Shown: positions 5,869 through 41,911 of the stretch, piece by piece
How positions within the stretch are numbered: the first letter of the stretch is position 1
Layout of the letters: each line of letters begins with the position of its first letter
Virus record (IMG/VR): IMGVR_UViG_3300036857_000157
Coordinates: 1 to 41,911 of that record
Reading direction: 5' to 3' (one strand)
DNA length: 41,911 bases
Source: a virus
Made by a program: the position numbers and the translations under genes
Notes under the pieces: model-generated
Databases searched by the model: none
Told to the model about the DNA's origin: nothing
What the model saw: only the letters and a program-made list of their open reading frames with translations

Positions 5869-5917
5869 TTCCCGCCACTTCCGCCTCTCCCTATAGGGGG
5901 GTTGGCGGAGGCGGGAA
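5647..5917. repeat. TGGCGGGGAA-type repeats, candidate origin iterons
   Basis: GATGGCGGGGAATGGGA occurs exactly at 5647-5663 and 5788-5804. The core TGGCGGGGAA occurs inverted (TTCCCCGCCA) at 5700-5709. One-base-shorter forms occur at 5869 (TTCCCGCCA) and 5910 (GGCGGGAAA). The repeats span the 3' end of the primase-helicase gene and the following gap. Clustered boxes inside or beside an initiator gene are typical of phage origins, but coding constraint on the GGEWE protein repeats could also explain two of them. Confidence 0.4.
5869..5917. terminator. Hairpin after the primase-helicase gene
   Basis: TTCCCGCC (5869-5876) pairs with GGCGGGAA (5910-5917), TCCGCC (5880-5885) with GGCGGA (5904-5909), and the loop contains CCCTATAGGG. 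It lies immediately after the primase stop and before the convergent integrase gene, so it probably terminates in both directions. There is no U-tract. The region may also overlap the attachment site. Confidence 0.7.
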
Positions 5918-5944
5918 ACGACAAGAGGGGAGGGAGAACCGTCG

Positions 5945-6181
5945 ATGAGTGACCTACCGCCGGCCGCGCGCGAGCGCGTCCAACGACTTGCGGACCAAAT
6001 CGCGCGCCGACTCCTGTCAGAGGAACTTGACCGCGATGCGCTCCGCGCCGACGCCACCCTTGGCGATGACGACCGACTCGATGGTGGCCCGGATGAGCGC
6101 GCGGCGTTCGTCCAGGGTCATCGCCTCACGGTCGGCGGCGTCCCGGAAGCGGAAGCGCCGCATGCCGCGCGTGACGGCTAG
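5945..6181 (+). CDS. Short ORF running into the integrase 3' end
   Basis: ATG 5945 has an excellent ribosome site (GGGAGGGAG, 5929-5937). The first 24 or so residues (MSDLPPAARERVQRLADQIA and onward) look like a genuine amphipathic helix. From 6017 the frame is antisense to the integrase and its sequence looks like shadow translation. It could be a small real gene, a remnant of a gene interrupted when the integrase module arrived, or an expressed antisense leader. Confidence 0.35.
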   Translation: MSDLPPAARERVQRLADQIARRLLSEELDRDALRADATLGDDDRLDGGPDERAAFVQGHRLTVGGVPEAEAPHAARDG

Positions 6182-7381
6182 CCGTTCGTTGGCCGCTCGC
6201 GCGTCGTCGCGCTCGCGCCGGAGTTCGGCTAGCTCTTCCTGCGCGGAGGGTTCGTCCATGACGCCGGCCGCGATGAATCCACGCACGGCAGCGTCTAGCT
6301 TGGTCTGAGCGGCATCGAAGCGCACTTGCGCCGCGACCGCCCGTTCCTCGCGCGACGCGTGTCCTTCGATATCGGCCGCGCGCTCGCACGCGGCGTCAAA
6401 CGTCATCTGCTCGACCAACACCGCGTTGATGGACACGCGCGCGGGACACCGGTCACGATGCGCCGCGCACTTGTAGAACGGATATACGCGCCCGTTCTGG
6501 CGTTGCGTGCCCACGACCATGCGGCTTCCGCACGTCTCGCACCTGAGAACGTCCAGGCGGGCAAGCAGGCGGTCCGACTTAGCGCGCCGGCCGCGCTTCA
6601 CGCGCACGCGCTGAACGCGGTCCCATAGCTCACGCGGGACGATGGCGTCATGCGCCGCAAGGTTCGGTTCATACTTGCCGAAGTGGATTTCGCCAAGGAC
6701 GACGCGCGAACTCAAGAGCGTTTGCACCTTCCGATAGGAGAGGTCCAAACCGTTGTCCTTGAGGAACGCTCGCACGTCATCGAGCGTTGCGCCGGTCGCG
6801 CGGAGTTCGTAGGCGCGTTTGACCACGGGAGCAACGTCAACGTCAACGTGGAACTTGCCGTCATCGCCACGCCGGTAGCCGGGGGTCACGTAGGGCCACG
6901 GGGGCACGCCACGCTCAATCGCTGCCTGTTGGGCGGGATGGATTTTCTCGGCGGTCATGCGGGAGTAATACTCATTGAGCATTCCGATGGTTGTCGCGCT
7001 TAGCCATTGCGCGGACGTGGCGTGGGAGATGTTCCCGAAGTCTACGGCGCGGACGCGACCCTTGGCGTTGTCCACGCGCGTAAGGACTTCATCTTGGACG
7101 TTGAGCGAGCGGGCGAGTCGGTCGAAATAGCCGACGATGAGCACTTCTGCCTCGCCGGACTCAATGCGCTCGACCGCTTCGCGGAGACCATGGCGCTTGG
7201 CGAGCGGGCGCTTGCCGGAAACGTCAATCTCCTCTAGCACGTCGATTAGCTCGACGCCTTCGCGTTCGCAATCCTCGCGCATGCGCTCCGCTTGGATGCG
7301 GGGCGACATGAACGAATCGCCTTCGCGCTCGCCTTTGTCTGATACGCGCGCCACACCGATGGCGCGCAGGGGCATGGTCAT
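6017..7381 (-). CDS. int: Large serine integrase
   Basis: Encodes 454 residues. The N-terminal resolvase domain has the nucleophile S14 (GVARVS) and the GYFDRLARSL helix near residue 84. The recombinase domain follows (TAEKIHPAQQAAIERGVPPW, TPGYRR), then a zinc ribbon (CETCGSRM and further cysteines, CAAHRDRCPA), then a coiled coil and a C-terminal tail. This is the full domain order of phage integrases that join attP to attB without supercoiling. It starts at a conserved start-associated sequence shared with four small genes on this strand. A serine enzyme predicts an attP near the gene, most likely in 5869-6016 or 7382-7405. Confidence 0.95.
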   Translation of the reverse strand: MTMPLRAIGVARVSDKGEREGDSFMSPRIQAERMREDCEREGVELIDVLEEIDVSGKRPLAKRHGLREAVERIESGEAEVLIVGYFDRLARSLNVQDEVLTRVDNAKGRVRAVDFGNISHATSAQWLSATTIGMLNEYYSRMTAEKIHPAQQAAIERGVPPWPYVTPGYRRGDDGKFHVDVDVAPVVKRAYELRATGATLDDVRAFLKDNGLDLSYRKVQTLLSSRVVLGEIHFGKYEPNLAAHDAIVPRELWDRVQRVRVKRGRRAKSDRLLARLDVLRCETCGSRMVVGTQRQNGRVYPFYKCAAHRDRCPARVSINAVLVEQMTFDAACERAADIEGHASREERAVAAQVRFDAAQTKLDAAVRGFIAAGVMDEPSAQEELAELRRERDDARAANERLAVTRGMRRFRFRDAADREAMTLDERRALIRATIESVVIAKGGVGAERIAVKFL

Positions 7382-7399
7382 TGCAAGGACCCTTTCGGT
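7382..7399 (-). promoter_or_regulatory. Start-associated sequence before int
   Basis: Minus-strand ACCGAAAGGGTCCTTGCA directly precedes ATG. GAAAGG is the Shine-Dalgarno part, but the conservation continues through GTCCTTGCA to the start codon at six genes in this window. Confidence 0.85.
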
Positions 7400-7405
7400 A
7401 GTTGG

Positions 7406-7624
7406 CTAGACGCGCGACTGCACGCCGTAGGTCATGTCAAGCGCGGCAATCGCGAGCGAATACCACGCGTCCCGCGTGTCGGCGGTCATCTTGGACCAAC
7501 CGACTGCATCGGGGCTACGCAACGGGCGCGCCTGAAATAGCGCACGCGCCACGCGCTCGATATCGCGCGGTGGGTACGGTCGCGCTCCGGTCGTGCGGTA
7601 CGGCGCGTATGCGTCGTCGCTCAT
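7406..7624 (-). CDS. Hypothetical protein, 72 aa
   Basis: Starts in an ATGA overlap with the upstream 74-residue gene, and its stop lies 24 bases before the int start-associated sequence. The sequence (PPRDIERVARALFQ, then AWYSLAIAALDM) suggests two helices, as in small phage proteins of the type 'all residues helical, no cysteine'. No family is recognised. Confidence 0.68.
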   Translation of the reverse strand: MSDDAYAPYRTTGARPYPPRDIERVARALFQARPLRSPDAVGWSKMTADTRDAWYSLAIAALDMTYGVQSRV

Positions 7625-7845
7625 GCCGTCACCGGCTCGATGGCCGCGACATGCGCGGGGTTGAGAGTGACCGGCTCCGAACGGAACGCCACAGACTTGT
7701 GCCCCCTGAACGGGACGCCGGCCTCCATCGCTTCGTCTAGTTCGGTCACGTCGTCACAGACCCATATCTCACGGCCAGTGCGAAGCGTGACCTTGGCGGT
7801 AGGGCCGAAGCCGTTCGGCCCGCCAACGGCGGTGAGTTCCCTCAT
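7621..7845 (-). CDS. Hypothetical protein, 74 aa (small beta barrel-like)
   Basis: The predicted protein alternates short strands (AKVTLRTGREIWVCDD, VAFRSEPVTLNPAHVAAIEPV), suggesting a small SH3-like or beta-barrel fold. It has ATGA-type overlaps at both ends (stop at 7621, and start within the stop of the 7842 gene). Function is unknown. Confidence 0.7.
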   Translation of the reverse strand: MRELTAVGGPNGFGPTAKVTLRTGREIWVCDDVTELDEAMEAGVPFRGHKSVAFRSEPVTLNPAHVAAIEPVTA

Positions 7846-8126
7846 GTGCGCGGTCCCCCGATGAGTTCGGCAACTCGCACCTTGATAGCCATGCGCTCCG
7901 TGTCGGTCGTGGGAATCGCGCCAATCTTCGCGTTCGTTTCCTCCGCGATGGAGCGCGCGGCAGCGTCGGCAACGCGGCTAAGCGGTGCAACGTCCGGACC
8001 CCGTTGGAGTCGGACAACCTCTTGCGCGAGCGCGACGACTTCGGACATGTCGAGCGTGCGCCCGTTGTCGAGCGCATCCGCTACTAGGTCGACGTGCGGA
8101 TTCACGCCGCGTTCGATGACGGCCAT
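7842..8126 (-). CDS. Hypothetical helical protein, 94 aa
   Basis: ATG at 8124-8126 overlaps the stop of the secreted-protein gene (TAATG), with GACGGGG upstream. The protein is mostly helical (VALAQEVVRLQRG, DAAARSIAEETNAKIG, ERMAIKVRVAELIGG). The coupling places it in the same transcript as the secreted protein, but no function can be assigned. Confidence 0.7.
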   Translation of the reverse strand: MAVIERGVNPHVDLVADALDNGRTLDMSEVVALAQEVVRLQRGPDVAPLSRVADAAARSIAEETNAKIGAIPTTDTERMAIKVRVAELIGGPRT

Positions 8127-8545
8127 TACGATGCCCCGTCGAACGTCACGCGCTCGCGCCCGTGGGTGGCCGTGAACTTGGCATACGGATCTTCGTTGGC
8201 GTCGTTGGCCATGCGGTAGCTGATACGCCACGTCCCGCCATCCCAACGCGCGCCTCCGATGTGGACCTTGGTCGGGATGCGGCCGGAGTGATTGCCCGCG
8301 TAGACCTGGACCATTCCGCCGATGGACTCCGCGACCAAGCAGCGCGGCGCATAGCCGTCCGTCTTGCGCGGGAGGTTGATGGCACGGAGGTTGTAGATGA
8401 CCGGGAACGTGTTCCGGTCGATGCCGCCGTACGTCTTGCCGTCGCACTTCACGACCGGCGTTGCAGCGGAGGCGTTGCCGGCGAGCATGGCTCCGGCCAG
8501 TATGGCGGCGCTCACAAGCGCGAGCGCCAACAGTCGAATGTTCAT
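8126..8545 (-). CDS. Secreted protein with signal peptide, 139 aa
   Basis: ATG follows TTAGGAGACCCAA. Residues 1-28 form a Sec signal (short basic start, then a long Leu/Ala/Ile core, then an AxA-type end at NASA-A), so the mature protein of about 110 residues would be exported. The mature part has two cysteines (VKCDGKTYGGID and PRCLVAES), which could form a disulfide, and a VHIGGARWDGGTWRISY strand pair. It is encoded among leftward genes beside the integrase. Secretion from a prophage could alter the envelope or block superinfection, but this is inference. No enzyme motif is seen. Confidence 0.82.
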   Translation of the reverse strand: MNIRLLALALVSAAILAGAMLAGNASAATPVVKCDGKTYGGIDRNTFPVIYNLRAINLPRKTDGYAPRCLVAESIGGMVQVYAGNHSGRIPTKVHIGGARWDGGTWRISYRMANDANEDPYAKFTATHGRERVTFDGAS

Positions 8546-8573
8546 TTGGGTCTCCTAACAGGTTGGTGTCTCG

Positions 8574-8777
8574 TCAGGCGTGGCTACCAATGCCACGCGT
8601 CGGAGGCGACATGTCGTCATCCTCCGATTCGTCTTCCTGTTCGTCTAGGAATTTCCAAGCCGCTTCCTCATCGGGGAAGCGGAACGTCTGCGCGCCGTTG
8701 GGCGTCCGCAACGTGACCAACCAATCCGGTCGGTTGCGCCGCCCAACCTGTCGCGCGTCGATGTAGGGAGCGCTCAT
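8574..8777 (-). CDS. Small acidic-tailed protein, 67 aa
   Basis: The start ATG (8775-8777) overlaps the stop of the neighbouring gene. Residues 17-47 resemble a compact strand-strand-helix unit (DWLVTLRTPNGAQTFRFPD then EEAAWKFLDEQ), ending in an acidic tail. It is a typical small phage protein of unknown role. Confidence 0.7.
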   Translation of the reverse strand: MSAPYIDARQVGRRNRPDWLVTLRTPNGAQTFRFPDEEAAWKFLDEQEDESEDDDMSPPTRGIGSHA

Positions 8778-8983
8778 TCCCAACCCTCCGCCGCGCACTC
8801 TGCGCAGAAATCGCCAGAGTGACGAGCGGACCATTTGGCGTCCGCTAGCGTCCGGTCGTTGACCCCATCGCCGTGAATGCATGTTGTCCGATACTTCACG
8901 GACGAACCGTGCGATGGGGAGTAGCGCACGACCGCGCCCGTGCGCGGAGCCGTGAAAATGACTTCCCCCGGAGCGCGCCTCAT
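8774..8983 (-). CDS. Small protein with Cys/His pair, 69 aa
   Basis: Start chosen at 8981-8983 because it forms ATGA with the upstream gene; an in-frame start farther out is less likely. CIHGDG (about 35) and FCAECAAEG (about 58) provide three cysteines and a histidine that could bind zinc. Function is unknown. Confidence 0.68.
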   Translation of the reverse strand: MRRAPGEVIFTAPRTGAVVRYSPSHGSSVKYRTTCIHGDGVNDRTLADAKWSARHSGDFCAECAAEGWE

Positions 8984-9240
8984 CAGAACGGAATGTCGTC
9001 GGGGTTGAACGGAGCCCATCGCACAACCTGGACCAACGCGCGCTCTGCGCTGTAGGCGTCGATGATGCGGCGCGCTGCCGCGTAGTCCGGGTCATCCGCG
9101 ATGCGGTACCCGTTGTAGAACGTCATGGCGTCGTAAGGGTCGAACCCCATAGACACGGCACCCATGCCGAACTCGGCGCGCTGCTCGCCTTCGGCCTCAT
9201 GTGCGCGGTCAACGTACTCGATTGCTTCGTCAATGGTCAT
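8983..9240 (-). CDS. Hypothetical protein, 85 aa, with conserved start sequence
   Basis: Starts at the second copy of the start-associated sequence. The protein is acidic, with helices at both ends (MTIDEAIEYVDRAHEAEGEQ, AAARRIIDAYSAERALVQVV) and a central GFDPYDAMTFYNGYRIAD segment. It heads a run of four overlapping small genes (9240 to 8126 or beyond). No family is recognised. Confidence 0.75.
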   Translation of the reverse strand: MTIDEAIEYVDRAHEAEGEQRAEFGMGAVSMGFDPYDAMTFYNGYRIADDPDYAAARRIIDAYSAERALVQVVRWAPFNPDDIPF

Positions 9241-9258
9241 CGCAAGGACCCTTTCGGT
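9241..9258 (-). promoter_or_regulatory. Start-associated sequence
   Basis: Minus-strand ACCGAAAGGGTCCTTGCG directly before ATG. This copy ends in GCG rather than GCA. Confidence 0.85.
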
Positions 9259-9262
9259 TGGA

Positions 9263-9511
9263 TTAGATGGCGTCGTCTGCGGCGCGCTGAATGCGCCCCG
9301 CTGCCGCTTCGTAGGTTGCGGCGGTTGTACGGAGCCAACGCCGATGGTCGGCGTTGTGCGGTCCCGCGTTCTGCCGAAGCTTCGCGGCGCGGCGATTCTC
9401 GCGGGCCATGAGGTAGAGACCCGCTGCCGCGTCGATGGCGTCGGAGCGCTCGATGGCGACCGGGTTACGGTCGGCTTCGGGGTGGCGCTGGCTGGTCGTG
9501 TAGTTGGTCAT
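9263..9511 (-). CDS. Hypothetical helical protein, 82 aa
   Basis: Start taken as ATG 9509-9511, with GGGGTG 7 bases upstream; GTG 9518-9520 is an alternative that overlaps the upstream gene. The sequence is strongly helical and alanine-rich (IDAAAGLYLMARENRRAAKL, TAATYEAAAGRIQRAAD). It follows the 79-residue gene with a 3-base overlap (stop-start). Unknown function. Confidence 0.68.
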   Translation of the reverse strand: MTNYTTSQRHPEADRNPVAIERSDAIDAAAGLYLMARENRRAAKLRQNAGPHNADHRRWLRTTAATYEAAAGRIQRAADDAI

Positions 9512-9513
9512 CG

Positions 9514-9753
9514 TCAGCACCCCGCGTAAACGGCGTCGGTAATGTCGATGGCCGCAACGTCGGGGTAGGCGTCGAGCATGTCCCCGATGTACCGTTGCAC
9601 GTCGGCGGAGTCGTAACGGTCCATCGTGTCGTAATGGTCTCCGGAGAGACCGGCGACGACGGACCGCGCGCCGCGCTCGATTGCGTCGAACTCAGCGGCG
9701 GTAAGGCAGCGCTCATTAGCGCTCATCGGCTCTGAGGTTGCGTCGGTATTCAT
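9514..9753 (-). CDS. Hypothetical acidic protein, 79 aa, with conserved start sequence
   Basis: Preceded by the third copy of the start-associated sequence, one T shorter than the others. The protein is acidic, with likely helices ERCLTAAEFDAIERGARSVV and DVQRYIGDMLDAYPDVAAID. Such small acidic proteins are frequent among phage host-takeover or DNA-mimic factors, but nothing specific supports that here. Confidence 0.72.
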   Translation of the reverse strand: MNTDATSEPMSANERCLTAAEFDAIERGARSVVAGLSGDHYDTMDRYDSADVQRYIGDMLDAYPDVAAIDITDAVYAGC

Positions 9754-9770
9754 TGCAAGGACCCTTCGTT
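9754..9770 (-). promoter_or_regulatory. Start-associated sequence (variant)
   Basis: Minus-strand AACGAAGGGTCCTTGCA before ATG. One A is missing from the GAAAGG element. Confidence 0.8.
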
Positions 9771-9794
9771 GTTGGTTGGTACTGCATGAGCGGC

Positions 9795-9833
9795 CGGGTA
9801 TCGAAACCCGCGAAGCGCCAATTCGCGCCGCTT
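9795..9833. terminator. Tandem small hairpins between two leftward genes
   Basis: CGGGT/ACCCG (9795-9799 with 9806-9810) and AAGCG/CGCTT (9813-9817 with 9829-9833) form two hairpins just after the stop of the 76-residue gene and before the next start. They probably form a weak terminator or an mRNA processing or stability element. Confidence 0.45.
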
Positions 9834-9837
9834 GGTT

Positions 9838-10068
9838 CTAGTCCAGCGATGCAGCCATCGCCCGGAGGCGCGCGGCGCGCTCCGGGTCGGACTGCTCGAC
9901 CAGCCCCGCAAGGATGGTCTGTTGCAGCGCGCAGTACGCCTCAAGGACGCGCACGCGCCCCCAACGGCCGGTCGCAATCGCATCGCCCATAGCGGCATCG
10001 CGCCGATGGCCGAAGTCCGTAAGCTTGCGCTCGACGTTGGCGATGATGGGGTCGGGATGGTTGGTCAT
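9838..10068 (-). CDS. Hypothetical helical protein, 76 aa, with conserved start sequence
   Basis: Preceded by the fourth start-associated sequence. Almost entirely helical (IIANVERKLTDFGHRRDAA, RVRVLEAYCALQQTILAGLV, PERAARLRAMAAS), without cysteine pairs or membrane segments. Tandem hairpins follow its stop. Unknown function. Confidence 0.72.
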   Translation of the reverse strand: MTNHPDPIIANVERKLTDFGHRRDAAMGDAIATGRWGRVRVLEAYCALQQTILAGLVEQSDPERAARLRAMAASLD

Positions 10069-10086
10069 TGCAAGGACCCTTTCGGT
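10069..10086 (-). promoter_or_regulatory. Start-associated sequence
   Basis: Minus-strand ACCGAAAGGGTCCTTGCA directly before ATG, identical to the int copy. Confidence 0.87.
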
Positions 10087-10098
10087 TGGGGTTGGGGG

Positions 10099-10437
10099 TC
10101 ACCCGTAGATGGAGACCCAATCGGTGTCGTTGAGGTTGCGGGACTCGACGTAGCTGCGCGACGTAAGTCCATGCTCGATGGCGTCGTTCGCGCGGACCTG
10201 CAAGTCCACCGCGCCGGCATCGGCCATGGCCCAATTCAGCGCCGTGTAAAGCTGGTCATCCGCCGCTGCCTTTGCGTCGGCAACGCCGTGGTAGTAGACC
10301 ATGCCGTCATCATCGAGCAGCCGGAACGTGAAGGTCTCACCCTCAAGCGGTGCCTTCGTGCCGAAGCCGACTCGCGAGGGGCAATCGTCGGTGCCAAACT
10401 CCTGCGCGAGGTAATCGCGGTCAATCTTCCAAGCCAT
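10099..10437 (-). CDS. Hypothetical protein, 112 aa, first gene of the leftward int-side array
   Basis: Carries the fifth start-associated sequence and is the first gene downstream of the AT-rich region at 10611-10680. It appears as a mixed alpha/beta domain (EGETFTFRLLDDDGMVYYHG, then an alanine-rich helix AKAAADDQLYTALNWAM). It may be the first cistron of the transcript that runs to int. No family is recognised. Confidence 0.75.
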   Translation of the reverse strand: MAWKIDRDYLAQEFGTDDCPSRVGFGTKAPLEGETFTFRLLDDDGMVYYHGVADAKAAADDQLYTALNWAMADAGAVDLQVRANDAIEHGLTSRSYVESRNLNDTDWVSIYG

Positions 10438-10455
10438 TGCAAGGACCCTTTCCGT
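10438..10455 (-). promoter_or_regulatory. Start-associated sequence (variant)
   Basis: Minus-strand ACGGAAAGGGTCCTTGCA directly before ATG; one base differs from the int copy. Confidence 0.85.
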
Positions 10456-10563
10456 TTCGTGGCGACTCTTTCAGGATGGGGTGCCAATCCCCATCGACGG
10501 TTCTCCCTCCGGCTGTTCGACGCCGTGCCGTTCCTTCGGGCCGGTTGACATTGAGGGTCGCTT

Positions 10564-10599
10564 CCCCGGCTCCCGAACCCGGTTCCCATGTCTCCGGGG
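10564..10599. terminator. Hairpin downstream of the 65-aa leftward gene
   Basis: CCCCGG (10564-10569) can pair with CCGGGG (10594-10599), with a GAACCCGGTTC palindrome inside the loop. It lies in the roughly 300-base gap between two leftward units and could terminate transcription from 11.1 kb. Confidence 0.4.
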
Positions 10600-10604
10600 G
10601 GTTC

Positions 10605-10680
10605 GCTCTGTGTGCTACGCACACTGTACTACATATATCGACAGCCGTGGACACGACTGTAGGGTAAAAGTAGTAGTGGG
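10605..10680 (-). promoter_or_regulatory. AT-rich probable promoter for the leftward array
   Basis: This is the most AT-rich patch in the 10438-10733 gap. On the minus strand it has GATATATGTAGTACAGT, with TAGTAC or TACAGT as possible -10 boxes and no good -35. GTGTGC-TAC-GCACAC (10610-10624) is a perfect dyad, and TTTTACCC at 10662-10669 matches a half of the operator described elsewhere in this window. Confidence 0.45.
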
Positions 10681-10733
10681 CGCGTAGCCGCTCTATGTCC
10701 CACGGGCGCGCCACGCGCGCGCACGCGAGGGGG

Positions 10734-10931
10734 CTACAGGCGTGAGAGGGTGCGGTCGCGCTGCCGGCGCTTGCGCGTTGCGTGGCGCTTGAGCATGGCG
10801 CGATGCGCGGGCGCGAGCACACGCGCGCCGACGATGGGGTGGACGGGGCAGCGGCGCGAGCGCGTGCCCATCTTCACGTCGGGGCGCGTGTGGAGCGCTC
10901 CGCCGACCGATCCGTAAGACGCGCGCGTCAC
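10734..10931 (-). CDS. Small basic protein, 65 aa
   Basis: GTG start at 10929-10931 overlaps the stop of the 51-residue gene (GTGA). The protein is very basic, with a short CPVHPIVGARVLAPAHR segment and a C-terminal Arg/Lys tract (MLKRHATRKRRQRDR), consistent with nucleic-acid binding. A similar RCPxH-plus-HR layout recurs in small phage proteins. Assignment rests on composition and overlap only. Confidence 0.55.
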   Translation of the reverse strand: MTRASYGSVGGALHTRPDVKMGTRSRRCPVHPIVGARVLAPAHRAMLKRHATRKRRQRDRTLSRL

Positions 10932-11083
10932 GCGTGCCCCTTCGTCTTGAGCGCCGGCACGTCGTGCGCCTCCGCGCACGCGGCCATCGCGGCGGCGTGT
11001 TGCGCCATCGCGGCGGACATTTCCTTGGCGGCAGCGATGAGGCGAGCATTGGCCCGCTCAAGCGCGCGAGTAGGGCGGTCCAT
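10928..11083 (-). CDS. Small helical protein, 51 aa, possibly leaderless
   Basis: ATG at 11081-11083. No ribosome site is seen. Instead, TAAAGT lies 11 bases upstream inside the dyad at 11096-11113, so the transcript could begin at or just before the start codon. The protein is a single alanine/methionine-rich helix (RALERANARLIAAAKEMSAA). Short and of unknown function. Confidence 0.55.
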   Translation of the reverse strand: MDRPTRALERANARLIAAAKEMSAAMAQHAAAMAACAEAHDVPALKTKGHA

Positions 11084-11095
11084 GATGGCGCACAC

Positions 11096-11113
11096 TTTAC
11101 CCGTATGGGTCAA
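11096..11113. promoter_or_regulatory. Dyad operator A overlapping a leftward promoter
   Basis: Plus-strand TTTACCCGTATGGGTCAA is an imperfect palindrome centred on GTAT. Its minus-strand form contains the -10-like TAAAGT for the 51-residue gene. The same dyad appears at 11549, 40588 and 40642. Confidence 0.65.
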
Positions 11114-11253
11114 GCGCCGGAGCGCGACTGCCCCATCGCTGTACGCGCCCCGGCGGTTGATCCTCGCACACGGGTGCGCGCGACGCGTGCCCACATCCCC
11201 AGCATCAACGCCGCGCGCTGCCCGTTTCCTCCCTCAAGCGCGACGGTTGGGGG

Positions 11254-11505
11254 TCACCCGCCGGCCATCGGAGCCACGATGATGGTTTCGCGCGGCGCGG
11301 TCTCCGGGTCGAACCCGGCGCGCACGTCGGCGCGGGGCATGTCCGTGAGCGTTTCCCCGTTGTAGAACATGAGCCCGTCGCGCGCCGACGCCGACCAAAT
11401 GGCTTCGCACCGCGCGATGGACTCCGGCCTCTCCGTGTCCCACGACAGGCGGTTGGGTCCGACCAGCCGCGCGGCTCCGCCGCGCAGCGAAAGCGTGCCG
11501 TTCAC
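11254..11505 (-). CDS. Hypothetical protein, 83 aa
   Basis: GTG start at 11503-11505 with a strong ribosome site (TAGGAGGTAG). Central DGLMFYNGETLTDMPRADVR and an ending ETIIVAPMAGG suggest a small alpha/beta protein. It is the first gene of the leftward region and is transcribed from a well-formed promoter (11547-11575) overlapped by operator B. Unknown function. Confidence 0.72.
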   Translation of the reverse strand: MNGTLSLRGGAARLVGPNRLSWDTERPESIARCEAIWSASARDGLMFYNGETLTDMPRADVRAGFDPETAPRETIIVAPMAGG

Positions 11506-11546
11506 GTCGCCTACCTCCTAGAGTCCGCTTGGACCGAACGGCTCAC

Positions 11547-11575
11547 GGTTTACCCCTATGGGCCAACGTACGCAA
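11547..11575 (-). promoter_or_regulatory. Leftward promoter with dyad operator B
   Basis: On the minus strand TTGCGT (11570-11575), a 17-base spacer and TAAACC (11547-11552) make a plausible sigma-70-type promoter. Operator TTTACCCCTATGGGCCAA (plus strand, 11549-11566) covers the -10 and most of the spacer. The plus strand over 11529-11556 (TTGGAC, 16 bases, TACCCC) may be a facing promoter. Confidence 0.65.
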
Positions 11576-11631
11576 GGGGCCAGCGTCTTTGCACGGGTTC
11601 TCGCTGGTAGGTTGGACAAAGACCCCTCACG

Positions 11632-11660
11632 TTGCAGGATTGACCCATGTTGGTTAGAAC
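11632..11660 (+). promoter_or_regulatory. Rightward promoter before the 178-aa regulator
   Basis: TTGCAG (11632-11637), 17 bases, TAGAAC (11655-11660). The spacer contains TTGACCCAT, which matches half of the dyad operator. The ATG of the gene lies 45 bases beyond. Confidence 0.5.
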
Positions 11661-11704
11661 TACGGCGCATCGGGCACACGCACATGCCGGACGGAGGTAG
11701 GGAC

Positions 11705-12241
11705 ATGGTGCTCAGGAACGGAACGTCGGTCATCGACCAAGCGCGGGTGCTGCTCGCGGCGGCGCGAGCCGAAGCCGGGGAACTCGACGCCGAGCGCCAA
11801 GCGCTCATCGCGGACCGCGAGCGCGAGATTGCAGAAGTGCGCGAGCGCTTCGGGGAGCGCCTTCGCGCGCTCGATGAACGGCGCAAGCTGGCTGGCCGGC
11901 TCGAATACGCGCTGGACCCCAACGCGTCGCGCGGAGGGCCGAAACGCAAGCGGACACCGAAGCCGGGGACTGACGAACGGAAGCCGCGTGCGTGGACCCC
12001 GGCGCAAGACAAGCTGGACGGCATCATCCGGGCCATCGCGGCCGGCGAGGCGAACACGGTCACGTCGATTGCCGAAGTGCTCGACGTGTCGCACACGACC
12101 GTGAAATACGGACTCGACGCGATGCGCGAAACCGGCCTCATCCGGCTTGCCGGCCAGAACGACAATTCGGCAGCGTTGTGGGCGCTCACGCGCGAGGGGG
12201 TCGCCCGCGCGGATGAACTCAATGGCGTGGGTGCGGTCTAG
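11705..12241 (+). CDS. Coiled-coil plus winged-helix DNA-binding protein
   Basis: Encodes 178 residues from ATG 11705, fixed by GGAGGTAGGG immediately upstream. Residues 10-65 form a heptad-rich coiled coil (AAARAEAGELDAERQALIAD). A basic linker with RGGPKRKRTPKPG follows, then a helix-turn-helix (TSIAEVLDVSHTTVKYGLDA) and a wing (LWALTREGV). It is likely a dimeric transcription regulator that opens the rightward middle region. It diverges from the 83-residue leftward gene, and operator B lies between them. Confidence 0.78.
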   Translation: MVLRNGTSVIDQARVLLAAARAEAGELDAERQALIADREREIAEVRERFGERLRALDERRKLAGRLEYALDPNASRGGPKRKRTPKPGTDERKPRAWTPAQDKLDGIIRAIAAGEANTVTSIAEVLDVSHTTVKYGLDAMRETGLIRLAGQNDNSAALWALTREGVARADELNGVGAV

Positions 12242-12243
12242 CC

Positions 12244-12666
12244 ATGGCGTCGCTCAAGCTTGAGGATTTCAGCGACCGTGAGTTGCTGTACGCGTTGGAG
12301 GACTACGCCGACGCGGACGGCTTGGTCTCAACGCAAGCGCTCGCGGAGGGGTTGGGTCTCAGGGCGCTCAAGCATCCGGTGCAGTCCATCGCGGTGCGCT
12401 TGTCGTGGCTCAAGCGCTACGGTGTCGTGCAGAGGGACGTGGAGACCGGTCGTTGGGGTCTCACGTCCGTGGGGGAGGGCATCATGCACGGACGCCTCAG
12501 CGGCGCGCAATCGCGCCTATTGGAGAACGTGGACCCGGACAACCTGTTTGCGGTTGTGCATGCGGTGGGTGGCCACCTGGGGCGCGCTCACCCCGAAGCC
12601 GCGACGATGGCCGCTAGGGAGTGGCGGTACAACCTAGCCGCACGGAAGCGCCGCAACGGGAGGTAA
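12244..12666 (+). CDS. Winged-helix protein, 140 aa
   Basis: Starts 3 bases after the preceding regulator. Residues 5-85 fit a winged helix: DRELLYALEDYADADG, then a recognition helix in HPVQSIAVRLSWLKRYGVV and a wing (RDVETGRWGLTSVGEGI). The C-terminus is helical and ends in a basic tail (ARKRRNGR). It is probably a second DNA-binding regulator in a small regulatory operon. The target is unknown. Confidence 0.75.
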   Translation: MASLKLEDFSDRELLYALEDYADADGLVSTQALAEGLGLRALKHPVQSIAVRLSWLKRYGVVQRDVETGRWGLTSVGEGIMHGRLSGAQSRLLENVDPDNLFAVVHAVGGHLGRAHPEAATMAAREWRYNLAARKRRNGR

Positions 12667-12729
12667 CGCGGTGGAGCCCGAGTACGGGGAGCTACCCCGA
12701 GTACAAGCAACCGCGAGGGAGGCGGGCGA

Positions 12730-13653
12730 ATGACAACGACCGTTGAAACCGCCGACGAACTCCGCGCACGCGCGGCGGGCCTTGACGAACGCGTCGAGGC
12801 GATGCGCGAGGAAGCGCGCGCGCTCGCATGCCAAGCCGCTGCCTATCGAGCGCAAGCGCGTGACATTGAGGCGCAGGAAGCCAAGACACGCATCGACCCG
12901 TTGTCCCGGCTCAATGGTCATCGCGAGCTAGGCGAAATGCTGGTCGAGATTTTGGACGCGTGCGATGAGCCGCAACCAATCTCGGCGTTGGTCGAGGTAC
13001 TAGGCGAGGATGGCAATACGCTTCGCCCGGTCCTTGAGCGATTGGCCGAACTCGGCGTTGTCGTGCGGACCGGCCTCAAGCGCGGGACGCGCTATCGACT
13101 GGCGCGAGAGGGCGAGGAAGTAGACGCGACCATTCCGCAGGGGCAGCGCTACGAAACGGCAGTACGCGACGCGGCGCGCGAACTCGGAACGTTCACGCTC
13201 GCGGAGCTACACGCCAAGGTGCCCGACATATCCGACCAAACCGTGACCCGTTGGTTGCGTGCGTGGACGGAGCAAGGCGTGCTCGATGTTGCCAAGGTGG
13301 GGACCACGAACGTCTACGCGTACGTGAAGCCGGATGGTCCGCAACCGACGCGCGCGCCGCGTTCGGACCCGAAGCCGTGGGAGCGCCCGAAGGATGCGCC
13401 CCCGATCCCGCAGCGTGGGCAAGCCGTCGAGGGCGCGGGGCGCTCGCGCAAGTTCGGCACGCACAAGGAACTCAACAAGCTTGCGCGTGAGGCAGCGCAA
13501 TTCGGCGTTGAGGTCAAACGGGCGGGCGGTGGGCACCTTCGGTGGATTCTGCCGGACGGACGTTGGGTGCAGAGTTCATCAACCCCTAGCGGCAACTCCA
13601 TGGTCATTACCCGCAAGAATCTTCGGGACCTAGGCGTTCCCGTCGCACCGTGA
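12730..13653 (+). CDS. Double winged-helix protein with HicA-like C-terminal domain
   Basis: Encodes 307 residues with ribosome site GGGAGGCGGG. Domain order: N-terminal coiled coil (10-55); winged helix 1 (ELGEMLVEILDACDEPQPIS, 66-127); winged helix 2 (TLAELHAKVPDISDQTVTRW, 142-200); a proline/charge-rich linker (200-240). Residues 245-305 follow the HicA mRNA-interferase layout, with a helix, VEVKRAGGGHLRWILPDG containing H269, SSSTPSG, and a last helix. HicA domains bind RNA and some cleave it; whether this one is active is unknown. No HicB-like antitoxin is adjacent. Confidence 0.72.
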   Translation: MTTTVETADELRARAAGLDERVEAMREEARALACQAAAYRAQARDIEAQEAKTRIDPLSRLNGHRELGEMLVEILDACDEPQPISALVEVLGEDGNTLRPVLERLAELGVVVRTGLKRGTRYRLAREGEEVDATIPQGQRYETAVRDAARELGTFTLAELHAKVPDISDQTVTRWLRAWTEQGVLDVAKVGTTNVYAYVKPDGPQPTRAPRSDPKPWERPKDAPPIPQRGQAVEGAGRSRKFGTHKELNKLAREAAQFGVEVKRAGGGHLRWILPDGRWVQSSSTPSGNSMVITRKNLRDLGVPVAP

Positions 13654-13657
13654 GGGC

Positions 13658-13969
13658 ATGAGCACATCGAGCGCCCCGATTGAATGGGTCCTAGTGTGCG
13701 TGGCGTTGCCCGCGTTCTACGCGGGACCGGACGTAACCGGCATGGCGTTGGAATGGTCCGACGTTGACGCTGAGGGTGGGCGCGGCGCGTCGGCGTTCAC
13801 GTTGGCACCCGAGCGCGCGCAACGCTTCCCCAATGCGGGAGCGGTCATGGAGGAATGGAAGCGGCAATCCACAGTGCGTCCGCTTCGCCACGATGGCAAG
13901 CCGAACCGGCCGCTATCGGCATTCACCATTTCTCCACGGAGGCTTGAGGAATGGACAGCCACGTTGTAA
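13658..13969 (+). CDS. Hypothetical protein, 103 aa
   Basis: ATG 13658 follows GTGAGGGC. Residues 8-35 are hydrophobic (IEWVLVCVALPAFYAG), but the stretch is short and broken, so a membrane segment is doubtful. The remainder contains an FTLAPERAQRFPNAGAVMEEW helix. Its 3' end overlaps the excisionase-like gene by 19 bases. No family is recognised. Confidence 0.65.
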   Translation: MSTSSAPIEWVLVCVALPAFYAGPDVTGMALEWSDVDAEGGRGASAFTLAPERAQRFPNAGAVMEEWKRQSTVRPLRHDGKPNRPLSAFTISPRRLEEWTATL

Positions 13970-14247
13970 GCGTGCGCGAGGCGGCGCGCCAGCTTGGCGT
14001 GCATGAGAACACGGTCCGCAATTGGATGGACGCCGGCACCATGGCGTATCGGACCGCCGGTTCATGGCGGCGTCCGTTGGTCTCCGAGGTTGCGCGACTC
14101 AAGGCGGACCCACCAGCCACGCGCGCACGGACGCGACTCGACGCGCTAGAGGAACGGCTAGAGCGGCTAGAGAACGTGGTTCGCACACTCCCCTACTTTG
14201 CGAGCAAGCTTGATGGCGAATCCGATTACACCGATTCAGGCGTTTGA
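13951..14247 (+). CDS. Excisionase-like MerR-type HTH protein with coiled coil
   Basis: Encodes 98 residues with GAGGA before ATG. Residues 5-50 are a classic excisionase-family HTH (VSVREAARQLGVHENTVRNW, then MAYRTAGSWRRPLVSEV), followed by a leucine-rich coiled coil (LDALEERLERLENVV) for oligomerisation. Family members act as DNA architectural or regulatory factors. In a phage with a serine integrase this is a candidate recombination directionality factor, though it lies about 6.6 kb from int and directionality factors of serine integrases are diverse. Confidence 0.78.
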   Translation: MDSHVVSVREAARQLGVHENTVRNWMDAGTMAYRTAGSWRRPLVSEVARLKADPPATRARTRLDALEERLERLENVVRTLPYFASKLDGESDYTDSGV

Positions 14248-14386
14248 CCGACTGATGGAGGCGCGCCTACTGGCGGAGCTATGGCGTCGGTCATCGGACC
14301 CGAACGTCCGCATCATGGGGGCCGATCTACTGCAAGTCATCGACGGGGACGCAACCGCCGACGATGTGCCCGTAACCCGTGTCTAA
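14213..14386 (+). CDS. Small helical protein, 57 aa
   Basis: ATG 14213 lies inside the end of the excisionase-like gene; ATG 14255, just after that gene's stop, is an alternative. The sequence AFDRLMEARLLAELWRRSSD suggests one long helix. The ribosome site is poor for both starts. Confidence 0.5.
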   Translation: MANPITPIQAFDRLMEARLLAELWRRSSDPNVRIMGADLLQVIDGDATADDVPVTRV

Positions 14387-14407
14387 CCGTTGAGGGAGGT
14401 TCGACGC

Positions 14408-14632
14408 ATGGACAGACCAGTTTGGCTAGGCATGTGCTCATGCGGTGAGCCAACCGGCTTGGTAGTTCTCGCGCAAGTGAAGCCGCAGCCGCGCAACGTG
14501 CCGTTGCCCGGACACGAAGGGCACACCGTAAAGGTCATCCGGTTGGACCACGGACCGAACGACAATCTCACACCGAAGCAACACAAACTCTTGATGCAAG
14601 CGATGGAGGTTCACGCCGACCATGCCGCTTGA
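14408..14632 (+). CDS. Small hypothetical protein with CxC and HxxH residues, 74 aa
   Basis: ATG 14408 chosen for GGGAGG eight bases upstream. It has MCSCGE near the N-terminus and later GHEGH, so metal binding is possible. The C-terminus is helical (PKQHKLLMQAMEVH). It overlaps the next gene by 11 bases. Unknown function. Confidence 0.68.
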   Translation: MDRPVWLGMCSCGEPTGLVVLAQVKPQPRNVPLPGHEGHTVKVIRLDHGPNDNLTPKQHKLLMQAMEVHADHAA

Positions 14633-15014
14633 GTTCGACCCGGAGGAAGAGACCCCGGACGGCCGGTTCCGTATCCGCCGCGTGTGTGTCATGGCGTCGG
14701 AGGACAAGCCGTTGGTTTGGGAGGTTGCGCCGAACACGACGGTGCTCTTGGCGCGCCCGTTGTGGGTTTGGTATTTCGCATCCCCGTTGGTTGACCGCTG
14801 GTTGCCGTTGGGGCAATCGACCAACGGGGAGTCGCCTAACCGCTTCGCCATCCTTGAGCACCAACGTACGCATGTGCTCGCGCGCATGCTCGCCAACAAT
14901 GGTATGGCGTGGGATGAGATAGAGGAACCGCGAGGCATCATCGACAAGCCGGACGGCGCGGGCTACGTCGTCGCGGTAGACGGAAAGGTGCTCAAGTTGG
15001 AGCTACCCGAGTGA
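14622..15014 (+). CDS. Hypothetical protein, 130 aa
   Basis: The ATG is preceded by GGAGG 12 bases away and overlaps the previous gene. The first half is strand-rich (FRIRRVCVMASEDKPLVWEV, TTVLLARPLWVWYFA). The middle is a helix (FAILEHQRTHVLARMLANN), and a final strand pair follows (GYVVAVDGKVLKLEL). No motif is recognised. The stop overlaps the GTG of the next gene. Confidence 0.7.
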   Translation: MPLEFDPEEETPDGRFRIRRVCVMASEDKPLVWEVAPNTTVLLARPLWVWYFASPLVDRWLPLGQSTNGESPNRFAILEHQRTHVLARMLANNGMAWDEIEEPRGIIDKPDGAGYVVAVDGKVLKLELPE

Positions 15015-15229
15015 CGCGCTTCCTGTTGCAGGACACGACGGTCAACCCCGCCGGCCTCTTTCGCTGTTGTCTGTTCTCCCTAATGGAGGCAAACGAACGT
15101 GCGCCCGACAACACGGCCACACCGGGGCAGGAAGTCTTCTGCCGGTACTGCGGCGAGCGCATGACCCTTGACGAATTCGGAATGTGGAATTGGGACCCGG
15201 AGAATGAGCCAACTATTAGACGCAAGTGA
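15011..15229 (+). CDS. Small zinc-ribbon protein, 72 aa
   Basis: GTG 15011 in a GTGA overlap. Cysteines at FRCCLF (about 18-20) and FCRYCGERM (about 44-47) make a four-cysteine site, and WNWDPEN ends the domain. The layout resembles small phage zinc ribbons. Unknown function. Confidence 0.7.
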   Translation: MTRFLLQDTTVNPAGLFRCCLFSLMEANERAPDNTATPGQEVFCRYCGERMTLDEFGMWNWDPENEPTIRRK

Positions 15230-15263
15230 AGTCGCAACGCGGCCGAACGGTTGAGGAACCGCG

Positions 15264-15473
15264 ATGGACGTTCGTAAGGTCCGCCGGTACGTGAGCCTTG
15301 AGCTACGGCGCGCCGAAGTGGAAGTGCCTACCGAACACATCGCGTATGTGCTCATCATCTTGGCTAACGGCCACCTTTTGCGCGACTTCGATTGCACGCC
15401 GGAGGAATACCAAGCGCGAGTGCAAGAGGCAATGCGCGAGGCGTTCGACAGGGTAATTTCGCGGAAGGCGTGA
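15264..15473 (+). CDS. Hypothetical protein, 69 aa
   Basis: ATG 15264 after TGAGGAACCGCG. Mixed helix and charged residues (RKVRRYVSLELRRAEVEV, then PEEYQARVQEAMREAFDRVI). It is the last gene before an internal promoter at 15484. Unknown function. Confidence 0.68.
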   Translation: MDVRKVRRYVSLELRRAEVEVPTEHIAYVLIILANGHLLRDFDCTPEEYQARVQEAMREAFDRVISRKA

Positions 15474-15483
15474 CACGGCCGAT

Positions 15484-15513
15484 TTGACAAATGCGGGATA
15501 ATGTATGTATGGC
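15484..15513 (+). promoter_or_regulatory. Internal rightward promoter with consensus -35
   Basis: TTGACA (15484-15489) is a perfect -35. A -10 such as TATGGC (15508-15513) lies 18 bases on. The -35 sits inside the dyad ATTTG-A-CAAAT (15482-15492), and GATAAT at 15497-15502 adds AT richness. It probably drives the 66-residue gene and the metallopeptidase; the dyad suggests regulation. Confidence 0.6.
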
Positions 15514-15541
15514 TCAAAACAACGAACGAAAGGAACCGGCC

Positions 15542-15742
15542 ATGCATTACGACCATTCCGCACTCGATTGGATCAAGCTTGGCGACTCCGGTTGGCGTCG
15601 CGCAAGCGTCACGCTTGACGCGGGCGACACGGCATGGCAGCCGGGGTCAACCTCGCGCGTGATCTACGGACCGGCAGTCGTCACGTACGACGAAGCGCCG
15701 GACGGCGGCACGGATGCCAAGGTGGGGAAGGTGGCGGCATGA
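15542..15742 (+). CDS. Hypothetical protein, 66 aa, first gene after the internal promoter
   Basis: ATG 15542 selected because GAAAGGAA lies 7 bases upstream; in-frame ATGs at 15491 and 15509 fall in the promoter. The product is short and strand-rich (WIKLGDSGWRRASVTLDAGD, SRVIYGPAVVTYD). Its stop overlaps the metallopeptidase start (ATGA), so the two are probably co-produced partners. Confidence 0.7.
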   Translation: MHYDHSALDWIKLGDSGWRRASVTLDAGDTAWQPGSTSRVIYGPAVVTYDEAPDGGTDAKVGKVAA

Positions 15743-16245
15743 TCGACCCGACGAAGGCGCGGGAGGCGAAGGCTTCCCGCGCACGCGAACTCGCAATGCA
15801 CGTCGTCGCGTGCGCGAACTTTCACGGCATCGACGTGGAGGAACACACGGGAGGCGGGCGCGCCGTGCCGTCCCAACGCGCGATCCGCATCCGGCCCGTT
15901 ACGGGCATGACGAGCTACTACGTCGCGCTGCACGAAATCGGCCACCTGATTGGCCGTGGCCGCGCCGCGCCGAAGCTTGAGCGGGAAGCGAACGCATGGC
16001 AATGGGCGCTCGACAACGCCAAGTTCCCGCCGACGCCGGGGGTGCGGCGGGGCATCGAGCGCCGCTTGCGGTCCTACTTGCGCCGGCACGCGCGCATGGC
16101 GTTGCGGCGGCGCGTCCGTTGGCCGGAGCCGTCGCATGTCTTCTGGACGTTGGCCAACGCAACGCCGACATGGAGCAAGGGCACGGGCGCGCCTACGCGC
16201 ATCGTCCTGCACGACTACCCGTTGGAGACCATCACTCTTGCCTGA
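15739..16245 (+). CDS. HEIGH zinc metallopeptidase (ImmA/IrrE-like)
   Basis: Encodes 168 residues. The zinc-peptidase signature H65-E66-I-G-H69 is followed by E83 in LEREANAWQWA, the spacing of the ImmA/IrrE (DUF955-like) group. No signal peptide is present, so it would act in the cytoplasm. The C-terminal half is basic and helical (RRGIERRLRSYLRRHARMAL). Members of this group cleave phage or ICE repressors or act as stress regulators. Here the gene follows an internal promoter, so a role in repressor inactivation is plausible but unproven. Confidence 0.8.
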   Translation: MIDPTKAREAKASRARELAMHVVACANFHGIDVEEHTGGGRAVPSQRAIRIRPVTGMTSYYVALHEIGHLIGRGRAAPKLEREANAWQWALDNAKFPPTPGVRRGIERRLRSYLRRHARMALRRRVRWPEPSHVFWTLANATPTWSKGTGAPTRIVLHDYPLETITLA

Positions 16246-16271
16246 TATCGAGAACGAAGCGCCGGGGCCCG

Positions 16272-16670
16272 ATGGGCGCGCTTGAGGAATGTCGCGCCGC
16301 GCGGCGCATCGTGGACGAAGCGCTACAGGCGACCGTGCGCGAGCGCGATGCGTTGCGCGCCGACCTAGAGCGTAGGCGCATCGAGGTCGAGGAATACGTT
16401 CAGCGCGTCATGGAGTTGAAAGCGGAGCGCGACGAACTCCAACGCGTCGAGCGCGTGGCGCGCGAGCAGCGCGACGAACTCCGCACCGAGCGCGACGACG
16501 CAACGCGCCTACTCGCGGAGGCGAGCGCGAAGGCGCTGCTTGCCATCGACCATTGCCAATGGTTGGTCGGTCTCGATGACCCGGCGGCAGCGCCGCTCCG
16601 CCAGCGCGTGACGTTGGACGGCATCATCAAGTCGGCGCGCACGGCGCTTGGTCTCCCGGACGGACTCTGA
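16272..16670 (+). CDS. Coiled-coil protein, 132 aa
   Basis: ATG 16272 with GGGG upstream. Residues 5-90 form an unbroken charged coiled coil (RERDALRADLERRRIEVEEY, REQRDELRTERDDATRLL), followed by a small helical C-terminal domain (RQRVTLDGIIKSARTALGL). It is the last gene before the 16.7 kb promoter. Unknown function; structural or regulatory. Confidence 0.7.
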   Translation: MGALEECRAARRIVDEALQATVRERDALRADLERRRIEVEEYVQRVMELKAERDELQRVERVAREQRDELRTERDDATRLLAEASAKALLAIDHCQWLVGLDDPAAAPLRQRVTLDGIIKSARTALGLPDGL

Positions 16671-16700
16671 CCGAATCCTGAACGCGCTTGGTCGTGCGCA

Positions 16701-16739
16701 TTGCGGTTCCGTTTGCCCGTGCGCTATTCTCACGGGCAA
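16701..16739 (+). promoter_or_regulatory. Promoter with 9-bp dyad for the 74-aa SAS gene
   Basis: TTGCGG (16701-16706), 18 bases, TATTCT (16725-16730). The inverted repeat TTGCCCGTG (16713-16721) and CACGGGCAA (16731-16739) brackets the -10. This suggests an operator, or a hairpin if transcribed from farther upstream. Confidence 0.62.
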
Positions 16740-16769
16740 CCGCTCGCGTATTGGGCGCGGGCAACGGGA

Positions 16770-16787
16770 CGAAAGGGTCCTTGCACC
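16770..16787 (+). promoter_or_regulatory. Start-associated sequence (plus strand)
   Basis: CGAAAGGGTCCTTGCACC precedes ATG 16788. This is the only copy on this strand, and it has two extra C bases before the start. Confidence 0.8.
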
Positions 16788-17012
16788 ATGGCAGACAACG
16801 ACACGGGCGCGGTTGACGTTTCGGCAGCGGTCGCGCAGCTTGACCAGACCATCGAAGCGCTCGAAACCGAAATCGGTGCGGATGAGACCGCGCTGAACGT
16901 CAAGCGCGCGCGCCTCAACGCGCTCAAGAAGGGCCGGCGCGGTCTGGAAGCAGCGGCGGACCCGGATATCCAGCCGCTTCGGCGCGGGGGTCGCAAGCCG
17001 GCAGCGGCGTGA
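16788..17012 (+). CDS. Small coiled-coil protein in its own transcription unit, 74 aa
   Basis: ATG 16788 follows the plus-strand start-associated sequence. Residues 12-50 are a coiled coil (VAQLDQTIEALETEIGADET) and the C-terminus is basic (LKKGRRGLEA, PLRRGGRKPAAA), consistent with nucleic-acid binding. The gene has its own promoter (16701) and terminator (17058), so it is a monocistronic unit. That organisation and the shared start sequence suggest separately controlled, perhaps abundant, expression. Function unknown. Confidence 0.75.
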   Translation: MADNDTGAVDVSAAVAQLDQTIEALETEIGADETALNVKRARLNALKKGRRGLEAAADPDIQPLRRGGRKPAAA

Positions 17013-38583: not shown

Positions 38584-38600
38584 CCCGAAAGGGGCACCCC

Positions 38601-38822
38601 ATGCCCGAGAAAGGTTCGGACGAACTCTTGCGCGCGAGCGCGGATTGGAGCGCCACCCTCGCGGGAGTAGCGGAAGAGGAAGCGCGCGGCGAAGCAGAAG
38701 AGGACCGGTTGAGCGAGGTTGATCCCGCGACCGTGGATGAACCCGGCGAGGAATACCCCGACCCCGGAGCGCCCCCGCCGAACGAACCGCACGATGAGTA
38801 CAACCCCCTGCCTCCGGAATGA
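38601..38822 (+). CDS. Small acidic protein between lysis enzymes, 73 aa
   Basis: ATG 38601 with CGAAAGGGG upstream. Extremely acidic and proline-rich (EEEARGEAEEDRLSEV; DPGAPPPNEPHDEY), without membrane segments, so it is not a holin. Stop overlaps the next gene. Unknown function. Confidence 0.68.
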   Translation: MPEKGSDELLRASADWSATLAGVAEEEARGEAEEDRLSEVDPATVDEPGEEYPDPGAPPPNEPHDEYNPLPPE

Positions 38823-39178: not shown

Positions 39179-39287
39179 GTGCAGCGCGGGCGGCTTGTCC
39201 AGACCGTTTGCCCGTCAACGGAGGGGCATGGCGTGCGCCGACTCCCGCGCCGACGTTCATGCTAGCCGGTCTCTACGATGAGCCGTA

Positions 39288-39356
39288 GGGGTGCCGGGGC
39301 CGGCTAGGGTGTTGGACTCGCAAGGACCCCCCTAGCCACACTGTCCCCGGCACCCC
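39288..39356. terminator. Large bidirectional terminator hairpin
   Basis: GGGGTGCCGGGG (39288-39299) pairs with CCCCGGCACCCC (39345-39356), and GGCTAGGG (39302-39309) with CCCTAGCC (39330-39337). It lies between convergent late and immunity operons. Its loop holds CGCAAGGACCC (39319-39329), the complement of the start-associated sequence. Confidence 0.88.
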
Positions 39357-39372
39357 GCTTCGGCCCGCTCCC

Positions 39373-41739: not shown

Positions 41740-41911
41740 GCGCCGAGATTGAACTTGCGCCGGCAACGCGCGCCGCGCAAGCCGATGAGTTCTTTACGCC
41801 GGAGCAAGTCCAGCTAATCAAGCGGCAACTACTCGCGCCCCGGAACCGCGAGGCGAGCGACGATGAGTTGGCGTTGTTCCTGTACCAGTGCTCACGCACG
41901 CGGTTGGACCC
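41736..41911 (+). CDS. recT: RecT/Bet annealing protein (3' truncated by window edge)
   Basis: The first 58 codons of the recT gene, whose remaining part begins at base 1. ATG 41736 overlaps the previous stop (ATGA). The first six residues (MSAEIE) are encoded only here; bases from 41754 repeat the window start. Confidence 0.9.
   Translation, partial: MSAEIELAPATRAAQADEFFTPEQVQLIKRQLLAPRNREASDDELALFLYQCSRTRLD
41754..41911. repeat. Terminal direct repeat, right copy
   Basis: Second copy of bases 1-158, with C41880 in place of T127. It shows that the sequence closes into a circle. Confidence 0.93.

Follow-up and report, generated by a model that had tools for sequence, protein, structure and literature searches.

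A 13-bp start-associated sequence (SAS), GGGATAGGAGCCC, has been described in cluster K mycobacteriophages, where it is found at 11-19 starts, is conserved beyond pairing with ribosomal RNA (rRNA) and is of unknown function (PMC3203893; PMC11373665; PMC12699233). Its copies lie 3-7 nt 5' of the start codons, mostly ATG, of non-structural genes and mostly at gaps >50 bp, and about half of them have an upstream extended start-associated sequence (ESAS), an inverted repeat (PMC3203893). Microbacterium phages of cluster EF carry the SAS GGGAAAGGACCCC, likewise conserved beyond rRNA pairing, with a linked ESAS (PMC7302621), and using this published consensus we found nine start-anchored copies in the EF phage AnnaSerena. 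Here we analysed IMG/VR virus record IMGVR_UViG_3300036857_000157 at its full length of 41,911 nt (the window), in which a 15-base element, GAAAGGGTCCTTGCA, stands directly 5' of the ATG of the integrase gene and of five small genes. Judging from sequence, we put the probability that it is an SAS-type translation-initiation element at roughly 0.7.

Six start-anchored copies of the element

Searching the window for CGAAAGGGTCCTTGCA with at most 3 mismatches returned 6 matches, against 0.33 expected from shuffles, and the core AAGGGTCCTTGC is identical in 6/6 copies, all of them start-anchored and in the sense orientation. The element is exact at 7382..7397 (- strand, 0 nt to the ATG of the serine integrase), at 10069..10084 (-, 0 nt to the ATG of a 76-aa gene) and at 16770..16785 (+, 2 nt, CC, to the ATG of a 74-aa gene); its last base is G at 9241..9256 (-, 0 nt to the ATG of an 85-aa gene), its first base is G at 10438..10453 (-, 0 nt, a 112-aa gene), and one A is deleted (CGAAGGG) at 9754..9769 (-, 0 nt, a 79-aa gene). 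Since just 2.5% of all 12-mers are found at 1-3 nt from an ATG-initiated open reading frame (ORF) of at least 35 aa, anchoring of 6/6 copies by chance has a probability of ~2.5e-10. When the window was scanned de novo for repeated words anchored at starts, the element word ranked first; the same scan recovered the known cluster K SAS from TM4 and returned nothing in three other actinophage records. The sequence-only reading of this DNA had noticed a near-identical sequence at int, four small leftward genes and one rightward gene, and all six copies were recovered here with AAGGGTCCTTGC invariant. Away from starts the motif is uncommon, as the window contains a single off-start copy of the 10-mer GGGTCCTTGC.

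The GAAAGG(G) of the element is a Shine-Dalgarno sequence 9-11 nt from the ATG, its partner being CCUUUC in the tail of actinobacterial 16S rRNA. The last nine bases, GTCCTTGCA, are conserved and lie outside normal Shine-Dalgarno pairing, which bears out the earlier claim that conservation extends past the ribosome-binding GAAAGG to the ATG. A plain strong ribosome-binding site (RBS), that is, one good 5' end reused through short recombination and having no partner in trans, would explain the good Shine-Dalgarno sequence and its good spacing, and GAAAGG at 8-11 nt is also seen at other phage genes (24222, 38601 and 15542). However, those other genes lack GTCCTTGCA, the tail is invariant across six unrelated genes on both strands where the sequence 5' of it has diverged, and a further copy of the tail is located in the loop of a hairpin (see below); we thus regard a plain RBS as rather unlikely.

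The distribution of the element among the 12 genes of the leftward operon, all with checked open frames, is restricted: it is present at 5/6 uncoupled starts and 0/6 coupled starts (Fisher p 0.015). The operon-first gene and 4/5 downstream genes with a gap >5 nt (gaps of 22, 24, 30 and 84 nt) carry it, and it is absent from all six genes that abut or overlap the adjacent gene. The rightward copy serves gene 16788, which lies 117 nt past its neighbouring gene. The element is confined to non-structural genes, namely, those of the integrase operon and 16788. Its presence at uncoupled but not at coupled starts argues for a role in independent (de novo) translation initiation, and on this sequence pattern the element would serve such initiation.

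We rejected gene duplication as the source of the copies. The six downstream proteins are no more similar to one another than shuffles are, and column identity drops to background beyond about -16 on the 5' side and beyond the start codon on the 3' side, a common ATGACC excepted; hence the similarity is not due to recent duplication of the genes, a caveat that the sequence-only reading had attached to its claim. The element could instead be a recombination linker, a short shared boundary sequence that aids gene shuffling and has no regulatory role, as the short intergenic gaps that contain copies do separate orphan genes unrelated to one another. Nevertheless, they are always fixed to a start codon, none is found at a coupled junction, and the element includes a ribosome-binding site, all of which makes a linker very improbable.

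Two scans of IMG/VR for the element gave chance matches only, none repeated and start-anchored as in the window, and no start-anchored copy was present in 50 relatives found by portal or in 6 found by tail protein. The scan of related phages for the motif, proposed along with the original observation, was thus unsuccessful, and on the contigs covered the element sequence is new, no other public contig searched having it at starts. We also checked a further 21 long relatives, identified through the portal, for repeated start-anchored words. One of them, the distant relative G031 (IMGVR_UViG_3300036832_000873), has an element of its own, ACACGTAAGC-(AACCAACA)-CAGGAGAGAACC-(A)-ATG, up to about 34 nt long, at four starts (G031:C1 18373-20131), the fourth being that of a 567-aa serine recombinase. 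Like the element of the window, that of G031 has start-anchored copies (four), a Shine-Dalgarno sequence and one copy at the serine integrase, but it differs in its unrelated, longer sequence, and no anti-element hairpin is found on the partial contig. As the G031 element also stands at a serine integrase, integrase-associated elements of the SAS kind exist with two unrelated sequences. The repeated start-anchored words of relatives G014, G015 and G028 were rejected as apparent coding repeats or chance occurrences.

A seventh copy in a hairpin loop and the reversed SAS of K1 mycobacteriophages

The seventh copy of GGGTCCTTGC (39320-39329, -) is not at a gene start and was missed by the sequence-only reading. 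It lies within a long hairpin (39288..39356, +; stems 39288-39299/39345-39356 of 12 bp and 39302-39309/39330-39337 of 8 bp) in the convergent intergenic gap 39179-39372, with a predicted fold of -45.4 kcal/mol over 75 nt (z -3.1). Read rightward, its 20-nt loop (39310-39329) contains a candidate anti-element, CGCAAGGACCC (39319..39329, +), which complements the element perfectly along 10 nt, and along 11 nt in the case of the 9240 site. The loop forms a few weak pairs in the minimum-energy fold and is open in the centroid, and its predicted duplexes with the six starts range from -20.6 to -27.1 kcal/mol. A perfect stem as strong as the one closing the loop is found at only 0.9% of window positions. 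A 15-mer scan for homologues of the hairpin gave ten matches, none in a comparable hairpin context, and Rfam had no match on the window or on the K1 hairpin region described below; neither the element nor the hairpin was found in any relative of the window's phage.

This copy also bears on the imperfect palindrome AAGGGTCCTT, which the sequence-only reading had pointed out within the element. If a phage repressor bound AAGGGTCCTT and blocked transcription in the manner of stoperators, the near-perfect palindrome AAGG-GT-CCTT would be accounted for; stoperators are likewise dispersed short sites, and several helix-turn-helix (HTH) genes are nearby. However, the sites keep a fixed place at the ATG and a fixed orientation relative to the gene, conservation spans the asymmetric GAAAGGGTCCTTGCA, and the seventh copy keeps GGGTCCTTGC without AAGGGTCCTT, thereby breaking the palindrome and retaining the asymmetric part. 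The palindrome therefore does not appear to be the functional part, and a DNA operator is very improbable.

Pope et al. described a single reversed SAS, not at a gene start, in each of Anaya, Adephagia, Angelica and CrimD (PMC3203893). As the off-start copy in the window lies in a hairpin loop, we predicted that the reversed K1 SAS would also lie in one. The prediction held: in both Adephagia and Anaya an intergenic gap contains a long hairpin whose 10-nt loop is CCUCCUAUCC, and only 0.44% of Adephagia 10-mers lie in such a loop. This hairpin (Adephagia 58654-58724, L225 30655-30725; homologues L222 and L228-L235) is unannotated or overlapped by hypothetical ORFs, and its region is present in 152 mycobacteriophage records. 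Across ten representatives the stem varies around an invariant loop; 92.9% of the cells in the alignment remain paired, none of the 500 shuffles or of the slid controls reaches the covariation score, and pairs changed on both sides number 3, not above shuffles, the sequences being related so that cell and pair counts are not independent events. The 16 consensus pairs include 20 G-U cells and 0 A-C cells; hence, only the rightward strand fits, the loop of which is antisense to the SAS. The hairpin is also present in Hammy, Unicorn and Cain, whose loops are related, rich in pyrimidines and weaker in SAS pairing (about -15 to -16 vs -21 to -23 kcal/mol). Short-core searches found no anti-SAS hairpin in Pixie, TM4, AnnaSerena or G031, and we found no report of such a hairpin in the literature searched, which did not cover the ZoeJ transcriptome paper cited by PMC11373665.

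The wobble pairs also help to weigh a protein target on RNA. Here a phage or host RNA-binding protein would recognise the element, and the hairpin, which shows GGGUCCUUGCG in its loop when read leftward, would be a decoy or autoregulatory site. The same data that favour an antisense RNA are consistent with such a protein, and since the hairpin lies 17 nt past the leftward stop codon at 39373, leftward transcripts would include it. On the other hand, the K1 wobble pairs (20 G-U vs 0 A-C) fit the rightward, antisense strand only, and we hold a protein target to be improbable.

We favour an SAS-type translation-initiation element, for which the following mechanism may be proposed. GAAAGG(G) would pair with the 3' end of 16S rRNA and allow de novo initiation at the uncoupled operon starts and at the one rightward gene, and GTCCTTGCA would be kept through recognition in trans, so that these genes, integrase included, would be controlled jointly. 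The translational control of an integrase-containing gene set suggested by the sequence-only reading fits the Shine-Dalgarno core, the restriction to uncoupled starts and the integrase-associated element of G031, and we infer that the element coordinates the control of the set. The best candidate for the trans partner is the phage's own hairpin 39288-39356, a tentative assignment. If it is transcribed rightward (e.g. by transcription running on past the 3' end of the late genes), its loop would display GCAAGGACCC, which would pair with GGGUCCUUGC and mask the Shine-Dalgarno end together with the bases between it and the start codon, and the element-bearing genes would be switched off together by this phage RNA. 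Antisense control by the hairpin RNA is plausible on the predicted pairing, and the loop could alternatively be a mimic of the rRNA tail. The role of the element in translation, its regulation, the existence of the hairpin RNA and the repression by it are all inferred from sequence. It is possible, though on balance doubtful, that SAS-type elements in at least two unrelated groups (the window phage and K1) are targeted by a phage hairpin RNA with an exact anti-SAS loop.

Several observations count against these proposals. The uncoupled gene 8126-8545 has an ordinary RBS (AGGAG) and no element, and as no relative with the same element was found, its conservation over time cannot be gauged. Some unrelated windows form duplexes as strong as the real sites do, and an off-site match of some element 10-mer has a chance probability of 0.46, so that the match is notable only by its loop position, the joint chance being about 0.4% and post hoc. 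An 8-mer search showed no anti-SAS hairpin in AnnaSerena. Keshu, Pixie, SirPhilip, Marshawn and Yuna are without such a loop and keep the SAS in 5/5 cases; because cluster K phages outside the K1/K5 type thus retain the SAS without the exact loop, SAS function in general does not need an exact anti-SAS RNA, and the pairing is not universal.

If the proposal is true, one small RNA controls a whole set of phage mRNAs by pairing with the repeat located at their start codons, and this would serve as a model of the tuning of many phage genes, integrase included, by one RNA. The function of the SAS has been open since 2011, and the reversed K1 copy was noted earlier without explanation; if an antisense RNA carries this copy as its loop, the question has a concrete answer that can be tested in Adephagia, a phage tractable in M. 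smegmatis.

The phage and its integrase operon

The portal and the integrase assign the window to actinophages; relatives of this phage infect actinobacteria. Because a 158-nt direct repeat, 99% identical, is found at its termini (1-158 and 41754-41911), the assembly is probably complete, about 41.75 kb and circular. The serine integrase (Resolvase, Recombinase and Zn ribbon; 6017..7381, -) is the last gene of the leftward operon, and a pattern scan of viral and genome contigs found no relatives of it. The 112-aa gene that comes first (10099..10437, -) has a weak match to phrog_12268, of unknown function; the 85-aa (8983..9240, -), 79-aa (9514..9753, -) and 76-aa (9838..10068, -) genes are orphans, and the 74-aa gene (16788..17012, +) forms its own unit.

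We also noted a perfect 19-nt repeat, GGAGGGAGAACCGTCGATG, comprising an RBS and an ATG, at 5929-5947 (+) and 10492-10510 (-). The copy at 10494 opens a leader peptide of 7 codons, MGIGTPS, immediately ahead of the first element-bearing gene; the ORF opened at 5945 has 78 aa and overlaps the int 3' end. Between prim-pol and the 3' end of int, an imperfect palindrome, TTCCCGCC..TATA..GGCGGGAA (5869-5920), is a terminator or attP candidate. The 84-nt gap preceding the 9753 gene contains a sequence (9775-9830, -) with a stem resembling a tRNA T-arm, CGGGTTTCGATACCCG; a tRNA remnant in this gap was rejected, as ARAGORN called no tRNA. Three rightward HTH-domain genes (11708, 12730 and 13951, in 11708-14247, +) are regulator candidates for the divergent operons.

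Comparison with known start-associated sequences and other phage repeats

The stoperators of cluster A and the intergenic repeats of clusters O and EG are, like the element, short dispersed phage repeats, but they are not fixed to start codons, and stoperators act in transcription (PMC3203893, PMC4351075). The resemblance to the EF SAS is limited to position and the GAAAGG core: the EF tail is ACCCC where the window has GTCCTTGCA, the EF consensus GGGAAAGGACCCC is not matched, and the EF SAS has its linked ESAS. As a separate observation, GAAAGGGGCACCCC (38584-38600), ahead of the ATG at 38601, is nearer to the EF-type SAS than the window's own element is.

The likeness to cluster K is closer, although it comes with clear differences. 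GAAAGGGTCCTTGCA fails the cluster K consensus GGGATAGGAGCCC at up to 2 mismatches; its distance to the start is 0 or 2 nt (6/6 ATG) rather than 3-7 nt; it has 6 copies rather than 11-19; and, unlike in cluster K, the gaps are short (22, 24, 30, 84 and 117 nt, plus one operon-first gene), the start copies are on both strands and the integrase is among the genes. We found no ESAS in the window, there being no conserved block from -60 to -17 of the six sites. On the other hand, both are repeated Shine-Dalgarno-containing elements at the ATG starts of non-structural genes, conserved past rRNA pairing, and in both the window and K1 one reversed off-start copy lies in a hairpin loop. The earlier comparison with cluster K, made with the remark that the sequence is different, is therefore apt: GGGATAGGAGCCC is not matched, and the element is SAS-like in its position and its conservation beyond rRNA pairing.

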